Shown: positions 46,885 to 54,612 of the stretch, in pieces
Layout of the letters: each line of letters starts with the position of its first letter
How positions within the stretch are numbered: the stretch's first letter is position 1
Source of the DNA: Actinomycetota bacterium
GTDB taxonomy: Bacteria > Actinomycetota > Geothermincolia > Fen-727 > Anoxymicrobiaceae
Assembly: GCA_018831265.1 (NCBI GenBank)
Contig: JAHJCO010000008.1
Location: forward strand, 1 to 64,000
Direction: 5' to 3'
Length of the DNA stretch: 64,000 nt
Translations under genes and position numbers: made by a program
Notes under the pieces: generated by a model
Databases searched by the model: none
Seen by the model: only the letters and a program-made list of their open reading frames with translations
Told to the model about the DNA's origin: nothing

Positions 46885-47010
46885 TGAGAATTAACCTCAA
46901 CCATCTTTTCTCATCAACCTCACTGTTTCAGAGCGGGGCTCGGATCCGGGAATCGTGTCCGGTCGTTGTTTCAGCCATATGTGAGAAATAATGGTTGAGG
47001 TGAATTCTCA
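46885..47010. repeat. Facing pair of CCTCAACC palindromes
   Basis: TGAGAATTAACCTCAACCAT begins at 46885 and closes with TTCTCA at about 46912; its inverse begins TGAGAA at 46982 and ends AATTCTCA at 47010. The first abuts the TAG of the Fe-S gene; the last three bases of the second are the TGA stop (minus strand) of the glycosidase gene. Confidence 0.75.
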
Positions 47011-49242
47011 GGGGTTGAGGACGGCCGAGTAGGCCGGCTTGAGCACGGCGTTCGTGTCCCAGAGGCCCCAGTGCGGACCGCAGCCCCCCTCGTCCTTCCA
47101 GGACTCGTCGAAAGCCTCGAAGTAGAAGTACTCGACGTTATTGGCCTCCGCCCAGTCCATGAACTCGCTCAGGTACCGCGCCGCGTTCGCCTCACCGGGC
47201 GCCGCCGCGCCGTTCACCTGCCCCGCGGTGGGCCAGCCGGTCTCCACGATGACCTTCTTGCCGCCCGCCACGCTCACGACCTCGCGGTAGCCCGCGTCCA
47301 GGCAGGCGATGGCCTCGTCGATGGAGACCTGCTCCCAGTAGGGGTAGATGTTGGCCGTGATGAAGTCACACGCCGCGATGACGTTCGGGGTCTCGCGCCA
47401 GTAGTAGGCCGTCTGGCTCGTGCTGACCTGGGCTCCGGCCGCCTTGACCTGGTTCATGTAGGAGATGAGCTGGGCTTCACTCAGCGCGTGGTTCTCCAGC
47501 ATCTCGTCCCCGACGAGCGCGAGGTCCACCACTCCGCGCCGGACCTGAGCCACGAGCTGGTCGACCTCCCTCTGGTTACGCTCGAGGTCCGACCAGATGT
47601 CCGCGCCCGCCGCGATCTTGATGCCCCTGGCGTGCGCCAGCTCGGGCATCGCGTCCCACTCGTCCTCGCTGCAGAACCCCCTTATCCACTCCGTGTAGGG
47701 GGCGATCTTATCCATGAGGGCGGCTACCTGCTCGACCGTCACGCTCCAGCTCGTGAGGTAGGGGCTGAAGCACATGCCGTGCATCGCCACAGGGCCGTTC
47801 GGCGTCGGGTCCGGGTCCGGGTCCGGATCGGGTGGAGGCTCGGGCGGCACGTAGCAGTGGCACGGGTTTCCACGCGCGTCCACGTATATCGGCCGCTCGA
47901 CGACCACGGAAGGACCGCTCGTCACCAATATGAGGCTGGCAAGGCTCAGGTTGGGTCCGGCGTGCTCGTTCACCAGTATCGTGGCACGGCTGTTGGCCCC
48001 CACGGTGACCGACTTGCTCGCAAGGGCCCCGCTCTCCTGGGTGAAGTACTGGACGGTGACGCTGGACGCCTGGCTCGACGTGTTCTGCACGCAAAGCCAC
48101 TCCTCGAAGTACTGTCCCGTGTAACCCTCCGCCAGGAACCAGCGGCCGGAAGCGGACGGCGCACCTATGGTGCAGTTGCCACCCTCGAAGTCGCAGCCGC
48201 CGTGCCCGAAGCAGTAGTACAGGGGGCGCTCCGCGAGGAAGTTGCTGCCGGAGGAGAGACGCACGCTCACGTCCCTGCCCCCACCCACCTCGCGTCCGAC
48301 CTCGATGGTGTACCTGCTGCGGGGGCCGACCGGGTACGTCCTGGTCAGAGGGTCCCCCTGGCCCGGGGCGAACTGGTAAGTCGCGGTGACGCTTATCGGG
48401 CTCCCGTTCGCGTTCTGCAGGGTGATCCACTCCTCGAACCCGGTGCGGGTGGTCCCCTCGGCGAAGTAGTAGCTCTTGCCTGGGGCCGTGGCGCCCATGA
48501 CGCAGTGGCCCCCGGCCCAGTGGTACGAGCCGGTGCCCAGGTAATCGAAGTAGATCGGCCTCTCGGCGACGATGGGCCGGTTGGACTCGAGCTTGAGCGA
48601 GGACTCCACGTCTGCCCCCAGCATGTCGTTGACCTTGAAGGTAGACCGCGAGCCCGCCGCGACGGTGCCGCTCCTGACCAGCTCGCCGGCGGGAGTCTGG
48701 AACCGGAAGTTGAGCGAGGCGGAGTAGCCGCCGGGGTTAAGCACGCATACGTACTCGTCGAATCCCCGCCCAGTGTAACCCTCGGCGAAGTACCAGGCGC
48801 TCGATGCGGCAGGTGCCGCCCCGACCACGTGGTTTCCCATGTAGGTGCCCTGGTAGTCGAAGTACTGCGAGCGCTCGATGGCGATGTCCGATCGCGTCGA
48901 GCTTATCTTCGCCGAGACCTCACGGTCCTGGCCCACAGCCGTGTTCACATCGACCGTGCACCTGGACTGCGCGGGGATGGTGCACTCCATCTGCTGGGAT
49001 GTCGAGCCGTTGAACAAAAAGGTCAGGGTCGCCGTGGCGGGGGAGGTGCCCGAGTTGCCTAGGCAGATGTACTCGTGGTACCCGGGGGCGGTGTACCCCT
49101 CGGCCAGGTACCAGTTGTACGTGGCGGCGGCGTCGGCCCGCGGCCCGACGAGCCCGCTCGCGAGCAGGACGACAAGCGCCAGGACCGCGAAGGCCGACGG
49201 CAACGATCCCCTTGTCAATATCGCAAACGGGCGTCTCGGCAT
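47008..49242 (-). CDS. Exported GH17-like glycosidase with four WYLAEG-type modules
   Basis: 744 residues from ATG 49242. Signal segment about 13-37 (ending ADA). Four modules come first, opening WYLAEGYTAPGYHEY, WYFAEGYTGRGFDEY, YYFAEGTTRTGFEEW and WFLAEGYTGQYFEEW. After a (DP)n-rich linker, residues about 490-744 form a TIM-barrel like GH17 beta-1,3-glucanases: VAMHGMCFSPY, the acid/base in VGDEML, the nucleophile in VIVETGWPTAG. This is the only one of the six with modules N-terminal to its partner domain. Likely cleaves a beta-glucan outside the cell. Confidence 0.8.
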   Translation of the reverse strand: MPRRPFAILTRGSLPSAFAVLALVVLLASGLVGPRADAAATYNWYLAEGYTAPGYHEYICLGNSGTSPATATLTFLFNGSTSQQMECTIPAQSRCTVDVNTAVGQDREVSAKISSTRSDIAIERSQYFDYQGTYMGNHVVGAAPAASSAWYFAEGYTGRGFDEYVCVLNPGGYSASLNFRFQTPAGELVRSGTVAAGSRSTFKVNDMLGADVESSLKLESNRPIVAERPIYFDYLGTGSYHWAGGHCVMGATAPGKSYYFAEGTTRTGFEEWITLQNANGSPISVTATYQFAPGQGDPLTRTYPVGPRSRYTIEVGREVGGGRDVSVRLSSGSNFLAERPLYYCFGHGGCDFEGGNCTIGAPSASGRWFLAEGYTGQYFEEWLCVQNTSSQASSVTVQYFTQESGALASKSVTVGANSRATILVNEHAGPNLSLASLILVTSGPSVVVERPIYVDARGNPCHCYVPPEPPPDPDPDPDPTPNGPVAMHGMCFSPYLTSWSVTVEQVAALMDKIAPYTEWIRGFCSEDEWDAMPELAHARGIKIAAGADIWSDLERNQREVDQLVAQVRRGVVDLALVGDEMLENHALSEAQLISYMNQVKAAGAQVSTSQTAYYWRETPNVIAACDFITANIYPYWEQVSIDEAIACLDAGYREVVSVAGGKKVIVETGWPTAGQVNGAAAPGEANAARYLSEFMDWAEANNVEYFYFEAFDESWKDEGGCGPHWGLWDTNAVLKPAYSAVLNP

Positions 49243-49598
49243 CAGGATGCGCTCCCTGCGTTCATGTCCACGGTGAACTCCCACCTGCTAGAGTCTCGGC
49301 AAGCCCGCGGGTTTTCTGGATGAGATCCGTCAATGTCCGGCTGGTTTTCAGAACGGAATCCTTCAATAAGGCTACAAGACAGTCCAACCAATGGGGGTCA
49401 AACCTGAAATCTTGCATTTCTTGCGTTTTGGGTCAAACCTGGATATTTGCGTTCTTGGATCCGGCAGCGCCCGGCCGCAGCCGGCCCTCCAAGGGAATCG
49501 ATCCCGGGTAGAGAATCAGCACTATAATCCAAGGAGGCTCCCGCCCGGATGTGGGCGGAGCCGGGCCGGCGGCGCATCGGATCCGAAAGGGCCGGAAC
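49243..49598. other. Gene-free stretch with an inverted GGTTTGACCCC element
   Basis: No gene seen. The divergent promoters of the glycosidase and acyl-CoA synthetase genes must lie here. At 49394-49456 a diverged reverse-strand copy of the element at 30521-30585 is present (GGGGTCAAACCTGA at 49394-49407, GGGTCAAACCTG at 49430-49441). Confidence 0.6.
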
Positions 49599-50999
49599 AT
49601 GCTGGATCTAAGACCTGTCTTCGAACCGGAGAGAGTCGCGGTGGTCGGGGTGTCCCTTTCCAACCCGTTCCACCCGGCAAACATCATCTACAACAAGAAC
49701 TACTACGGGCACGATGCCGAGGCGTTCGCGGTGAACCCCCGTGGCGGGACCCTGGAGCGTCGCCCCGTCTTCGAGTCGGTCTCGGCCATCCCCGGCGGGG
49801 TGGACATGGCCGTGCTGGCGGTGAAGGCTCCGCTGGTGCCCGGGGTCGCGGAGGAGGCGGCGAACGCCGGCGCGCGCGCCCTGGTGGTGATCGGGGGAGG
49901 TTTCGCCGAGACGGGGCCGGAAGGCCGGGTTCTCCAGGAGGAGCTTCTCGCGGTCTGCAGGAAGCACGACGTCGCGCTCATCGGACCCAACTGCTTCGGT
50001 GTCTACTCGCCCCCGCGCGTCGACACGTTCTTCCTGCCACCGGAGCGGACGGTGCTGCCGACGAAGGGCGATATCGCCGTCGCCAGCCAGAGCGGTGCGT
50101 TCCTGGTCGACCAGGTCATGACCAACTTCCAGGCGGCCAGGATCGGCGTGAGCGTCGCCGTGAGCATGGGCAACAAGGCCATGGTGGACGAGGTGGTGTT
50201 GCTGGAGCACTTCGCGCGGCGCGACGATACCCACGCGATCTGCTTCTACCTGGAGGGGACCGACGAGCGGATGCGCAGCTTCATGGAGGTGGCGCGCGAC
50301 GTCACACGGGCGAAGCCGGTGGTGGTGTACGTGGGCGGCAAGAGCGAGCGGGGGGCGCAGGCGGCGGCCAGCCACACCGCGGCGCTGGCGGGGAACCACG
50401 AGCTGATGGCGGGGGCCCTGAAGCAGAGCGGGGTCCTGGAGGCGGAGACCGAACTGGAGGTCACATCCTTCTGCAAGATGCTATCCTACTACCACGAGCG
50501 TCCGTTGAGTGCGTGCAACATCGCGGTGATATCCTCCAGCGGCGGGCACGGGGTCATCGCCTCCGACCTCTGCGAGCCGGCGGGCCTGAACATCCCGCGG
50601 TTCTCGGAGGAGCGGCAGGAGGAACTCCGCGCTCTGCTGGAGCCGAACCTGCACGAGATCGCCTCCCTGGGCAACCCGGTGGACCTCACGGGCAGCGCGA
50701 GCGACCAGGACTTCGAGCGCACGCTGGACTACCTTCTGAGCCAGAACGACATAGAAGCCGCCATGATACTGACCCTGCCCTATACGCCCATGATGACCTC
50801 TTTCGTGGGGACGCGCCTGGGGCAGGTGGTCAAGCGCCACGAGAAGCCGGTGGTCGCCTACGTGCCCGACCTGGCCAAGTACGGGATGGTCCTGGAGGGC
50901 TTCGAGCTCAACGGCATCCCGGTGGTGCACGCCATCGAGCACGCCGTCCAGATGCTCAAGTGCCTGAGGCTGCTGGGCGAGACCACCTGCGGGGGATAA
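49599..50999 (+). CDS. Acyl-CoA synthetase (NDP-forming), alpha-type subunit
   Basis: 466 residues from ATG 49599. Residues 1-130 are a CoA-binding Rossmann domain (VAVVGVSLSNPFHPANIIY, VIGGGFAETG); IGPNCFGVYS and ASQSGAFLVDQV belong to the succinyl-CoA-synthetase-like flavodoxin domains; the phospho-histidine loop is ASHTAALAGN. The ATP-grasp beta part is absent and no separate gene for it follows. Would convert an acyl-CoA plus NDP and phosphate to acid plus NTP, or the reverse, together with a beta subunit coded elsewhere. Confidence 0.85.
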   Translation: MLDLRPVFEPERVAVVGVSLSNPFHPANIIYNKNYYGHDAEAFAVNPRGGTLERRPVFESVSAIPGGVDMAVLAVKAPLVPGVAEEAANAGARALVVIGGGFAETGPEGRVLQEELLAVCRKHDVALIGPNCFGVYSPPRVDTFFLPPERTVLPTKGDIAVASQSGAFLVDQVMTNFQAARIGVSVAVSMGNKAMVDEVVLLEHFARRDDTHAICFYLEGTDERMRSFMEVARDVTRAKPVVVYVGGKSERGAQAAASHTAALAGNHELMAGALKQSGVLEAETELEVTSFCKMLSYYHERPLSACNIAVISSSGGHGVIASDLCEPAGLNIPRFSEERQEELRALLEPNLHEIASLGNPVDLTGSASDQDFERTLDYLLSQNDIEAAMILTLPYTPMMTSFVGTRLGQVVKRHEKPVVAYVPDLAKYGMVLEGFELNGIPVVHAIEHAVQMLKCLRLLGETTCGG

Positions 51000-52379: not shown

Positions 52380-53351
52380 ATGGCGGAGACACTCACACCC
52401 GAGGATATCAGGGAGCGCTACGGCGACCTGCCGTTCATCACCCCCTACAGCCGCATCGTGGCGCTCCTCGGTCGCGACGGGCTGGTCGAACTGCACGAGT
52501 TCCACGCGAGGGACCGGTGTGGGGGAGGAGCGGCCTGGGAGGTCTACCACTACGCCGGGACCAGCCCCCTGGTGCTCTCGGCCAGGCGTGAGGGCGCTCG
52601 CAATATCTTCGTCTGCGAACAGGGGCGCTGTGAGCTGAAGCTGGAGCCCGGGATAGCCGGGGCGGGCCTGGAGGAGGTGCGCGTCTCGGGGAACGAGGTA
52701 GAGATCACCTACGCGGGACTCGCGGGCGGCGGCGTCGCGGCTACGCTGTGCCGGGGAATGGCCGACAACGTGATCTCGACCGTGGTGCACGAGAGGGGCG
52801 GCGGCGCGACCATGGGGCGGGCCACATTGCGGGTCCCCGTAGCCTCGAAGCTGGTCGTCGGCGTGGACGACACTGACGATGACAAGAAGGGCGCGACCTG
52901 GTCCACCATGAACGAGCTCTCCTTCGAGCTCGAGCAGGAGGGTGCCTGTGAATACCTCGGCCACGTCATCGTGCAGCTGTTCCCGGAGAATCCCCACAAG
53001 ACCACCAACTGCTGCTCCACCGCGGTCCTGCTGGGGGCCCGGCCCGGGCACGAGGAGGCGCTCGCCGAGACGATCAGGGGAATGCTCGCGGCGCGGATCT
53101 ACAGCGACGAATGCGGGATGGCCTTCTACACGCGGGTTGGGATCCCCTACGAGCTGCGGGAGTACTCTGCGCGGACCCGGTCGCGGATGGTGGACATAGA
53201 GGAGACGCACCTGATCGCGAGGCGTTGCGGCGTATCGCTGCGAGAGGTCACGGGAGAGCGCGGCCTGATAGGCGCGCTGGCGGCGCTGGGGGCGCACGAC
53301 GATCCTGACGGCGCCGTGCGAGTCCGGCGGGCCGGGGGGATGGGCGGCTGA
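52380..53351 (+). CDS. Methanogenesis marker protein 11 homologue (TiaS-related DDTD domain)
   Basis: 323 residues. The N-terminal third has FHARDRCGGGAAWEVYHYAG and AGLAGGGVAATLCRGMADNV, the C-terminal part VVGVDDTDDDKKGATWSTMNE, KTTNCCSTAVLL and GLIGALAALG. These strings fit methanogenesis marker protein 11, a family otherwise described from methanogens, whose G-DDTD loop is related to tRNA-Ile2 agmatinylcytidine synthetase. Biochemical role unknown. The stop codon overlaps the start of the radical SAM gene (TGATG), so the two are coupled. Confidence 0.75.
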   Translation: MAETLTPEDIRERYGDLPFITPYSRIVALLGRDGLVELHEFHARDRCGGGAAWEVYHYAGTSPLVLSARREGARNIFVCEQGRCELKLEPGIAGAGLEEVRVSGNEVEITYAGLAGGGVAATLCRGMADNVISTVVHERGGGATMGRATLRVPVASKLVVGVDDTDDDKKGATWSTMNELSFELEQEGACEYLGHVIVQLFPENPHKTTNCCSTAVLLGARPGHEEALAETIRGMLAARIYSDECGMAFYTRVGIPYELREYSARTRSRMVDIEETHLIARRCGVSLREVTGERGLIGALAALGAHDDPDGAVRVRRAGGMGG

Positions 53352-54415
53352 TGGAGCACGACCAGGCGCTCGAGGCGAAGGTCCGGCTGCAGTCGCTCGG
53401 GGCCAGGGTCCCTGCCTCGCCCCGGGTGCGATGCGGCGGGGCGGGGCCATCCGAGGGGATCAACATCAGCATGGGGGGACTGGCGGCGACAGTACCCACC
53501 GGCGCGTGGTACGTCGAGCGCTCTCCCTTTTCCGTCGAGGAACGCGCGGACGGGACCTGGGAACTGGTCGAAGACGGGCGCGCGCTCGGGGCGGTGGAGA
53601 TAGCCGATGACCCGCTGTTCTACTCCAGGAGGGCGCCCGACGGGACACCGTTCGGTATGCTAGCGGTCCGGCACGGCAGGGACGCCATCGGGTCGACGGT
53701 CGCCCAGTGGTGCGCCCGGGGCACAGACGCCTGCGGGTTCTGCGGTATAGCCCTGACCCGCGACAGGGGAGAGACCGTGGCCCGCAAGGACCCCGGCTCG
53801 CTGGGTCTCGTCGCTCGCGCCGCCGGCGAGGAAGGCTACACCCACGCGGTCCTCACCACTGGGACGACCTCGGTGGAGGACGCCGGCATAGGGCTGTTGA
53901 CAGAATGCGCGACCGCGATCGCGGAGGTATCGGACATCGACGTGCACGTCCAGTTCGAACCTCCGCAGGATCCTGCCTACATAAGGTCGGCGGCAAGGGT
54001 CGCGGTGAGCGCCGCAGTGAACATCGAGTCCTTCGACGCTGACACGCTGGCCAGGATCGCGCCCGCAAAGCACGCGGCCGGGCTGGACCGGTACGTGGAT
54101 GCCTGGAAGGAGTCCGTCGAGCAGTTCGGCGCGGGCCAGGTGACCAGCTTCATCATCGTAGGTCTGGGGGAGTCGCGGGAAAGCGTGTTGGAGGGGTGCC
54201 GGCTTCTTACCTCCCTGGGCGTGTACCCGTTCGTCCTTCCGCTGCGCCCGATACCGGGCACGCCGCTCGGAGGCCTCGCGCCTCCGCCCCCCGACGCGAT
54301 GACGAGCCTCTACGAGGACGCCTCCAGGATAATCGAGTCGGCCGGACTTTCGGCCTCCGATTGCCTGGCAGGGTGCGTGCGCTGCGGCGCGTGCTCCTCG
54401 ATCACTCACTTTTAG
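53351..54415 (+). CDS. Radical SAM protein, MSMEG_0568-like family
   Basis: 354 residues. VRCGGAGPSEG near the start and the cluster region STVAQWCARGTDACGFCGIA (C-x6-C-x2-C) fit the MSMEG_0568 family, which departs from the usual CxxxCxxC. MTTGT-like LTTGTTSVEDAG, VHVQFEPPQDPAYI, AGQVTSFIIVGLGES and LRPIPGTPLGG follow, and the end CLAGCVRCGACSSI supplies extra Cys, perhaps for a second cluster. The family is known from actinobacterial nitrilase-linked clusters; here it is coupled to a marker-11 homologue instead. Substrate unknown. Confidence 0.8.
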   Translation: MEHDQALEAKVRLQSLGARVPASPRVRCGGAGPSEGINISMGGLAATVPTGAWYVERSPFSVEERADGTWELVEDGRALGAVEIADDPLFYSRRAPDGTPFGMLAVRHGRDAIGSTVAQWCARGTDACGFCGIALTRDRGETVARKDPGSLGLVARAAGEEGYTHAVLTTGTTSVEDAGIGLLTECATAIAEVSDIDVHVQFEPPQDPAYIRSAARVAVSAAVNIESFDADTLARIAPAKHAAGLDRYVDAWKESVEQFGAGQVTSFIIVGLGESRESVLEGCRLLTSLGVYPFVLPLRPIPGTPLGGLAPPPPDAMTSLYEDASRIIESAGLSASDCLAGCVRCGACSSITHF

Positions 54416-54508: not shown

Positions 54509-54612
54509 GGGTCAGGCAGGATTCAATTCACACGAAAAGGGTCAGGCATCATTCAATTCACACCACGCAAATTGTTTCAACGATTATGCCGAAATTGAAT
54601 GCTGCCTGACCC
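54509..54612. repeat. GGGTCAGGC...ATTCAATT composite palindrome
   Basis: The left arm (54509-54528, GGGTCAGGCAGGATTCAATT) pairs with AATTGAATGCTGCCTGACCC (54593-54612) with small mismatches; a second left-type unit GGGTCAGGCATCATTCAATT starts at 54539. The right end reaches the stop codon of the sigma-factor gene (54612-54614). Confidence 0.7.

Follow-up and report, generated by a model that had tools for sequence, protein, structure and literature searches.

The stretch of DNA analysed here (the window) spans 64,000 nucleotides, positions 1 to 64,000 of contig JAHJCO010000008.1 (assembly GCA_018831265.1), from an Actinomycetota bacterium of the Anoxymicrobiaceae. It carries two overlapping genes, the first for a homologue of methanogenesis marker protein 11 (MMP11) and the second for a radical S-adenosylmethionine (SAM) enzyme similar to MSMEG_0568. 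Judged by sequence similarity, the organism's own genome holds relatives of four genes, these two together with genes for an AIR synthase-like protein (AIRS) and a relative of Mmp4/MtxX (methanogenesis marker 4, MMP4), and these four families are found together in archaeal and, with some exceptions, Actinobacterial genomes. The pair consists of the following features.

52380..53351, + strand: MMP11 gene, 323 amino acids, stop included; TIGR03280, 315.3 bits; AlphaFold model, pLDDT 91.0
52380..52838, + strand: MMP11 N-terminal domain, residues ~1-153, strong conservation
52842..53333, + strand: TiaS-like TCKD and FLD region of MMP11, predicted ATP-using part, residues ~155-318
52866..52877, + strand: DDTD motif of MMP11, residues 163-166, invariant in 21 aligned MMP11 proteins
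53351..54415, + strand: MSMEG_0568-like radical SAM gene, 354 amino acids, stop included; TIGR04043, 290.8 bits; NF045502, 135.4 bits
codons 53711..53743, + strand: radical SAM cluster motif C-x6-C-x2-C (CARGTDACGFC)
codons 54374..54394, + strand: radical SAM C-terminal C-x2-C-x2-C (CVRCGAC), predicted ligands of an additional iron-sulfur cluster

The gene pair and its protein families

The junction of the two genes reads TGATG: the stop codon of the first, TGA, occupies 53349-53351 and the ATG of the second starts at 53351, the one base common to both. This is the overlap that a first-pass annotation of the window had described. The same annotation named the first protein MMP11 from the strings GVDDTDDDKKGATW and AGLAGGGVAATLCRGMADNV, which lie within the 323-residue sequence, and an NCBIfam scan agrees: the match to TIGR03280 (methan_mark_11) covers model positions 1-292 of 292 at 315.3 bits, above the cut-off of 255.8, a score of hundreds of bits and not a product of chance strings. 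Identity to the aligned named archaeal members is 47-54%. Could the gene belong instead to another DDTD family? The profile search says MMP11; with the full-length TiaS model the protein reaches 32.9 bits, where the cut-off is 600, over model positions 2-152 of 422. A published function of MMP11 was looked for, and none was found.

The relation of the DDTD domain to TiaS, the tRNA(Ile2) agmatidine synthetase, holds for part of the protein. MMP11 has the TCKD and FLD fold and the DDTD motif, and residues 159-251 match the two TiaS domains above the Pfam cut-offs, but homology and fold match are confined to residues ~155-318. The rest of MMP11 is a different, N-terminal domain (residues ~1-153), for which there was no confident fold match among PDB structures, and the later TiaS domains, past TiaS residue ~266, have no match. 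Other proteins share the TCKD domain. Short (~270-290 amino acids) DDTD, TCKD-only proteins are encoded by other Actinobacteria (L078:8139-8951+, L079:8145-8960-, L081:7498-8319- and L080); they score 22-40 bits to MMP11, under the cut-off, and one genome has two copies. An extra MMP11-like (TCKD) gene is found near MMP11 or MMP4 in several loci (L009:6175-7119+, L025:1851-2861-, L174:7304-8350+, L189 and L196); in L025 and L174 it is a distant paralogue.

For the second protein, which the first-pass annotation assigned to the MSMEG_0568 type, the profiles divide. It narrowly misses the cut-off of TIGR04043, MSMEG_0568 rSAM (290.8 against 303.7 bits), and passes that of NF045502, variant_rSAM (135.4 against 125). 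The two cysteine features singled out earlier are both there: the odd C-x6-C-x2-C at 53711-53743, which departs from the CX3CX2C that is canonical in the radical SAM superfamily, and the cysteine-rich C-terminus at 54374-54394. Among the best 120 of 519 homologues found, the first spacing is x6 in 49, x8 in 46, x5 in 15, x9 in 6 and the canonical x3 in 3, with 1 unread; the three CX3CX2C homologues are 53-57% identical to the window protein. CX2CX2C follows residue 250 in 119 of these 120 and is invariant in 20 aligned homologues. Methanogen-type genomes pair MMP11 with a divergent relative that has CX3CX2C (7 read) and the same C-terminal motif.

Two known systems invite comparison. The window protein is 42-47% identical to GNAT-fused and other homologues of MSMEG_0568/NitD of Nit1C; the C-terminal CX2CX2C is common to both, and both settings include an AIRS partner. 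The differences lie in the spacing, x6 in the window protein against x8 or x9, and in the partners, here MMP11 and MMP4. Because the Actinobacterial clade falls with MSMEG_0568-type sequences, some with a fused GNAT domain, in the radical SAM tree, a shared radical SAM-AIRS core may be older than either use. With lipoyl synthase (LipS2) there is a weak profile similarity, 65 bits for the radical SAM protein of L174 and 21.2 bits for the window protein, far under the cut-off of 270; the second cysteine motif is C-terminal in the radical SAM protein here, and the proposed parallel is the formation of a C-S bond. There is also a second radical SAM paralogue, more distant, at L082:2546-3685-, L083:8021-9184-, L138 and L139; no C-terminal CX2CX2C was found in it. 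In genomes G101 and G240 it stands, by eye, beside apparent methionine/cysteine biosynthesis genes.

Spread of the pair and its partner genes

How constant is the pairing? A search of genomes, proposed with the first-pass annotation, found the pair in bacteria and archaea alike. Named genomes gave 29 MMP11 loci, from Actinobacteria, Archaeoglobi, Methanofastidiosia, Bathyarchaeota, Methylarchaceae, Methanodesulfokora and others, and in 23 of them a radical SAM gene of the same family adjoins MMP11 or lies within ~1 kb. This is 23 of the 24 loci open to judgement, with L011 as the exception; 5 further contigs stop within or at MMP11. L007 has the radical SAM gene inverted, L015 and L024 have it upstream, and in L010 it is cut by the contig end. 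A gene for a SufS-type cysteine desulfurase adjoins the pair at L015:5569-6717-, and a like gene has the same place in L024; both loci are from Mnemosynella, where the gene is a possible sulfur source. A bacterial pathway of two genes, as first envisaged, is too small a frame, since the pair is also linked in archaea and genes for AIRS-like and Mmp4/MtxX proteins accompany it.

MMP11 scores above the cut-off in 7 of 396 genomes of the window's phylum. The marker gene of methane-making is mcrA. The check for mcr genes in the organism's own genome (3.87 Mb, 94.77% complete) gave no mcrA match (PF02745; other mcr genes not searched), and the controls M. jannaschii and M. acetivorans were both matched. 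Among the 29 named MMP11 genomes, mcrA was found in 11, none of them among the six bacterial ones, and gave no match in 18, some of which are small or fragmentary. The restriction to methanogenesis (mcr) that the name MMP11 implies is not borne out by these mcrA searches. The window gene differs from the setting of TIGR03280 in that it belongs to an Actinobacterial genome without an mcrA match and is linked to radical SAM, AIRS and MMP4 genes; in methanogens MMP11 is linked to Aks-like genes. In the MMP11 tree a clade of nine rows (92/83), Actinobacterial wherever a name is given, sits among archaeal rows with L008 and L009 as its neighbours (84/77). This placement, for which support is modest and the root arbitrary, suggests that Actinobacterial MMP11 was transferred from archaea.

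The co-occurrence of the four families was followed in 80 archaeal genomes, mostly picked by hand, 65 with and 15 without MMP11, at E thresholds of 1e-8 (radical SAM), 1e-25 (MMP2-like, for methanogenesis marker 2) and 1e-15 (MMP4), all looser than the curated cut-offs. Radical SAM matches were found in 64/65 genomes with MMP11 versus 1/15 without it, MMP2-like matches in 62/65 versus 1/15, and MMP4 matches in 52/55 versus 0/11 of those tested (Fisher, relatedness ignored: 1.5e-13, 6.5e-12 and 3.4e-10). The one archaeon with MMP11 and no radical SAM match, G404, has a shortened copy at a contig end. Above the curated cut-offs lie TIGR03267 in 49/80 archaea and TIGR03270 in 46/80 of the MMP4-search genomes. 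The single archaeal genome without MMP11 that has radical SAM and MMP2 matches, G439 (L116; C218:20064-21044), also lacks MMP4; its MSMEG_0568 radical SAM (386 bits) and its MMP2 (466 bits) both reach a full score.

The Actinobacterial set comprised 30 genomes, 7 with MMP11 and 23 others (7 versus 7 for MMP4). Radical SAM (at least 266 bits; best non-match at most 48) was present in 7/7 versus 4/23, AIRS (at least 173 bits; best non-match at most 71) in 7/7 versus 5/23, and MMP4 in 6/7 versus 2/7; the latter two genomes, G068 and G090, have AIRS and radical SAM as well. Fisher values, again with relatedness ignored, are 1.6e-4, 3.9e-4 and 0.10.

In seven archaeal loci an Mmp4/MtxX gene has MMP11, an MMP11 paralogue (L025) or the radical SAM gene as its neighbour; four of these Mmp4/MtxX proteins were scanned, three scoring above the TIGR03270 cut-off and one short of it by 0.3 bits. 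Both MMP2 and MMP4 were found in 50 archaeal genomes, in 17 of which they are neighbours, and in an Actinobacterial locus (L005) an AIR-synthase-like gene follows the radical SAM gene (287 bits with sll0787, 240 with methanogenesis marker 2). Neighbour pairs in one genome or another are MMP2-MMP4, MMP4-MMP11, MMP11-radical SAM and radical SAM-AIRS. In the organism's own genome AIRS (C52:51932-52858) and MMP4 (C52:26083-26655) are 25 kb apart. The best PDB relative of this MMP4 is MTH_231 (105.6 bits); Lmo1369, a possible phosphate acyl/butyryl transferase, is also related. According to a passage in PMC4153887, an AIR synthase-like protein and MtxX are common to all or nearly all methanogens.

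Genes for heterodisulfide reductase (Hdr)-like proteins recur nearby. HdrA is present in four of the archaeal MMP11 loci (L173, L174, L175 and L189). Of the 8 Actinobacterial genomes with MMP4, 6 were looked at, and all 6 have an HdrA-like gene no more than 10 kb from MMP4; scans confirmed proteins that join HdrC-like and cysteine-rich (CCG) parts in four of the six, with a shorter one in a fifth.

Coenzyme B and other possible products

Mcr-based methanogenesis uses coenzyme B (CoB). AksA, AksD, AksE and AksF are the chain-elongation set of its biosynthesis, with 2-oxosuberate as product, and the steps past 2-oxosuberate lead to 7-mercaptoheptanoylthreonine phosphate. In six loci (L173, L174, L175, L176, L189 and L196) relatives of this set continue a gene run that MMP11 and the radical SAM gene begin, in the order MMP11, radical SAM, IorA-like thiamine pyrophosphate (TPP) protein, AksA-, AksD-, AksE-, XcbA- and AksF-like, and the genes abut or overlap (gene starts uncurated). 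In the L174 run, by single-function NCBIfam models, the large subunit scores higher with the homoaconitase model HacA_Meth than with LEU2 (404 against 371 bits), the small subunit with the homoaconitase model HacB2_Meth than with leud (158 against 134) and the dehydrogenase with the homoisocitrate dehydrogenase model AksF2_Meth than with leuB (314 against 233), neither cut-off being reached in any of the three. The small isomerase subunit has YLRT in 7 of the 8 loci holding one and YLRS in L188; YLRT is the form in homoaconitase 2PKP, against YLVY in the isopropylmalate/citramalate isomerase 3VBA. Within the same run a protein of the DUF7714/XcbA family (L174:14237-15034+) scores 49.7 bits with CoM_XcbA_fam, under the cut-off of 150.

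Among 27 archaeal MMP11 loci (L166 and L172-L197), a TPP gene lies within 5 kb of MMP11 in 16. This IorA-like TPP protein, a frequent neighbour of MMP11 in methanogen-type genomes, is a candidate 2-oxosuberate decarboxylase. It scores well under the IorA cut-off and is seen at L106:3-596-, L107:2379-3857+, L177:10172-11866+ and L218:10364-12040+.

What might the four proteins make? The literature leaves room at the end of the CoB pathway: a passage in PMC3087415 has the steps after Aks carried out by an 'estimated 2 unknown proteins', and one in PMC12068725 (2025) describes the pathway as 'still unknown'. We tentatively favour the reading that MMP11, the radical SAM enzyme, AIRS (of the sll0787/MMP2 group) and the Mmp4/MtxX relative make CoB or a CoB-like thiol, as missing enzymes of the pathway, a reading whose chances we put at somewhat less than even. 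Its wider form is rather doubtful: that MMP2-type AIRS, MMP4, MMP11 and one radical SAM enzyme are the missing CoB enzymes and that some anaerobic Actinobacteria without Mcr, having acquired them from archaea, make CoB or a close mercaptoacyl thiol for Hdr-like complexes.

In methanogens the TPP enzyme would decarboxylate 2-oxosuberate. The C7 carboxyl or carbonyl group could be activated, at the expense of ATP or of an acyl phosphate or acyl-CoA, by the TiaS-like part of MMP11, AIRS and the phosphotransacylase-like MMP4. The radical SAM enzyme, which has a second cysteine cluster, might take part in forming the C-S bond as lipoyl synthase does. The catalytic roles of all four are inferred from family membership, the C-S chemistry from the second cluster and the weak lipoyl synthase similarity, and the allotment of each enzyme to one step is a guess. 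Where Mcr is absent, the Hdr-like proteins whose genes lie near MMP4 would be the users of the thiol, be it CoB or a relative. Such a scheme brings methanogenesis markers 2, 4 and 11, all three of them orphans, together with one radical SAM family in a single testable pathway, and places candidate genes for CoB steps in genetically tractable methanogens. Should Mcr-less bacteria indeed make such a thiol, a 'methanogen-only' cofactor would not be methanogen-only, and bacterial heterodisulfide-reductase-like complexes would gain a candidate substrate.

Several observations weigh against CoB, beginning with the Aks-like genes. They are present at MMP11 in only 9 of the 27 archaeal loci; no Aks/Hac equivalog cut-off is reached in the L174 run, and its AksA-like protein has an isopropylmalate synthase subfamily as best model (463 bits, cut-off 517; homocitrate synthase 383). 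The bacterial pair differs from the methanogen loci here: a blastp search (E<=1e-5) found no homologue of the TPP, Aks or XcbA proteins in the window or in 55 loci around named MMP11 and Actinobacterial genes (829 kb; the organism's own genome was not searched whole for aks). PMC12068725 suggests COG1900 proteins for the thiol step of CoB. TIGR04043 is above its cut-off in 6/80 archaea, and methanogen-type matches are mostly partial and weak (53-113 bits); M. jannaschii, the methanogen control, has no match at E<=1e-8 and one at 1e-3, and the Sulfolobus acidocaldarius control does match at E<=1e-8. In L011 the contig ends 160 bases past MMP11, and the radical SAM match of that genome is on another contig, with no MMP11 next to it.

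Gene content adds to these points. G068 and G090 have AIRS, MMP4 and radical SAM without MMP11, and G478 has MMP11 and radical SAM with no match to MMP2 or MMP4. G092 and G189 hold radical SAM and AIRS without a full MMP11, and MMP4 is not in G092; the core chemistry, on this gene content, need not concern thiols. The organism's own AIRS scores higher with sll0787 (TIGR04049, 250.2 bits, cut-off 321.3) than with MMP2 (TIGR03267, 200 bits, cut-off 365), and its MMP4 gives TIGR03270 scores of 141 bits in the genome search and 140.6 for the protein, below the cut-off of 190.

The four genes may instead make some other small molecule or cofactor for anaerobes with heterodisulfide-reductase-type redox or archaeal C1 metabolism, Aks being merely co-regulated in methanogens. 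We regard this as a serious possibility, if a minority one. It accords with the 18 of 29 MMP11 genomes that lack an mcrA match, with the absence of Aks and TPP neighbours from the stretches searched in lineages with the variant radical SAM, and with G068, where the radical SAM gene is downstream of what appears by eye to be a CODH/ACS and folate cluster. The abutting or overlapping MMP11, radical SAM, TPP and Aks-like genes of the six loci, with the caveat on gene starts given above, argue against it, as do MMP11-TPP neighbours scattered across the methanogen-type clade of the MMP11 tree and Hdr-type genes near the genes in both settings.

Nit1C-like nitrogen or nitrile chemistry, in which AIRS would dehydrate an amide as HypE does and a small amino compound would be cleaved by the radical SAM enzyme, is unlikely. 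The bacterial AIRS is closer to sll0787 than to MMP2, the radical SAM tree links the Actinobacterial clade to MSMEG_0568-type sequences as described, and these radical SAM and AIRS families are together in G092 and G189 without a full MMP11. In the Nit1C cluster nitrilase and GNAT partners stand beside the radical SAM gene, but neither is among the three nearest genes scanned here (the rest of the genome was not searched). In G092, besides the lack of MMP4, the MMP11 match covers the TCKD part only and none of four genes scanned is a nitrilase, so that the G092 set is itself not proven to be Nit1C. Modification of a tRNA or nucleotide was among the first-pass suggestions. This reading, in which a base carbonyl would be the target of MMP11 as of TiaS, is very improbable, for the TCKD/FLD homology and fold match in its favour stop at residues ~155-318 and the gene context is one of Aks- and Hdr-like genes, not tRNA genes.

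Neighbouring genes and other features of the window

Upstream of the pair lies a gene that is context with a weaker link.

49551..50999, + strand: ADP-forming acetate-CoA ligase alpha-like gene; TIGR02717, 358.7 bits, cut-off 567.15

In the organism's own genome an acetate-CoA ligase alpha-like gene (TIGR02717, 355 bits) also adjoins MMP4, at L158:12814-14250. Elsewhere in the window, 47008-49284 on the minus strand encodes a predicted protein with several near-repeats of the type WYLAEGYTG..EYICLQNP. Between the radical SAM gene and a minus-strand sigma-factor-like gene, at 54510-54610, are the inverted-looking stretches GGGTCAGGCA...TGCCTGACCC.

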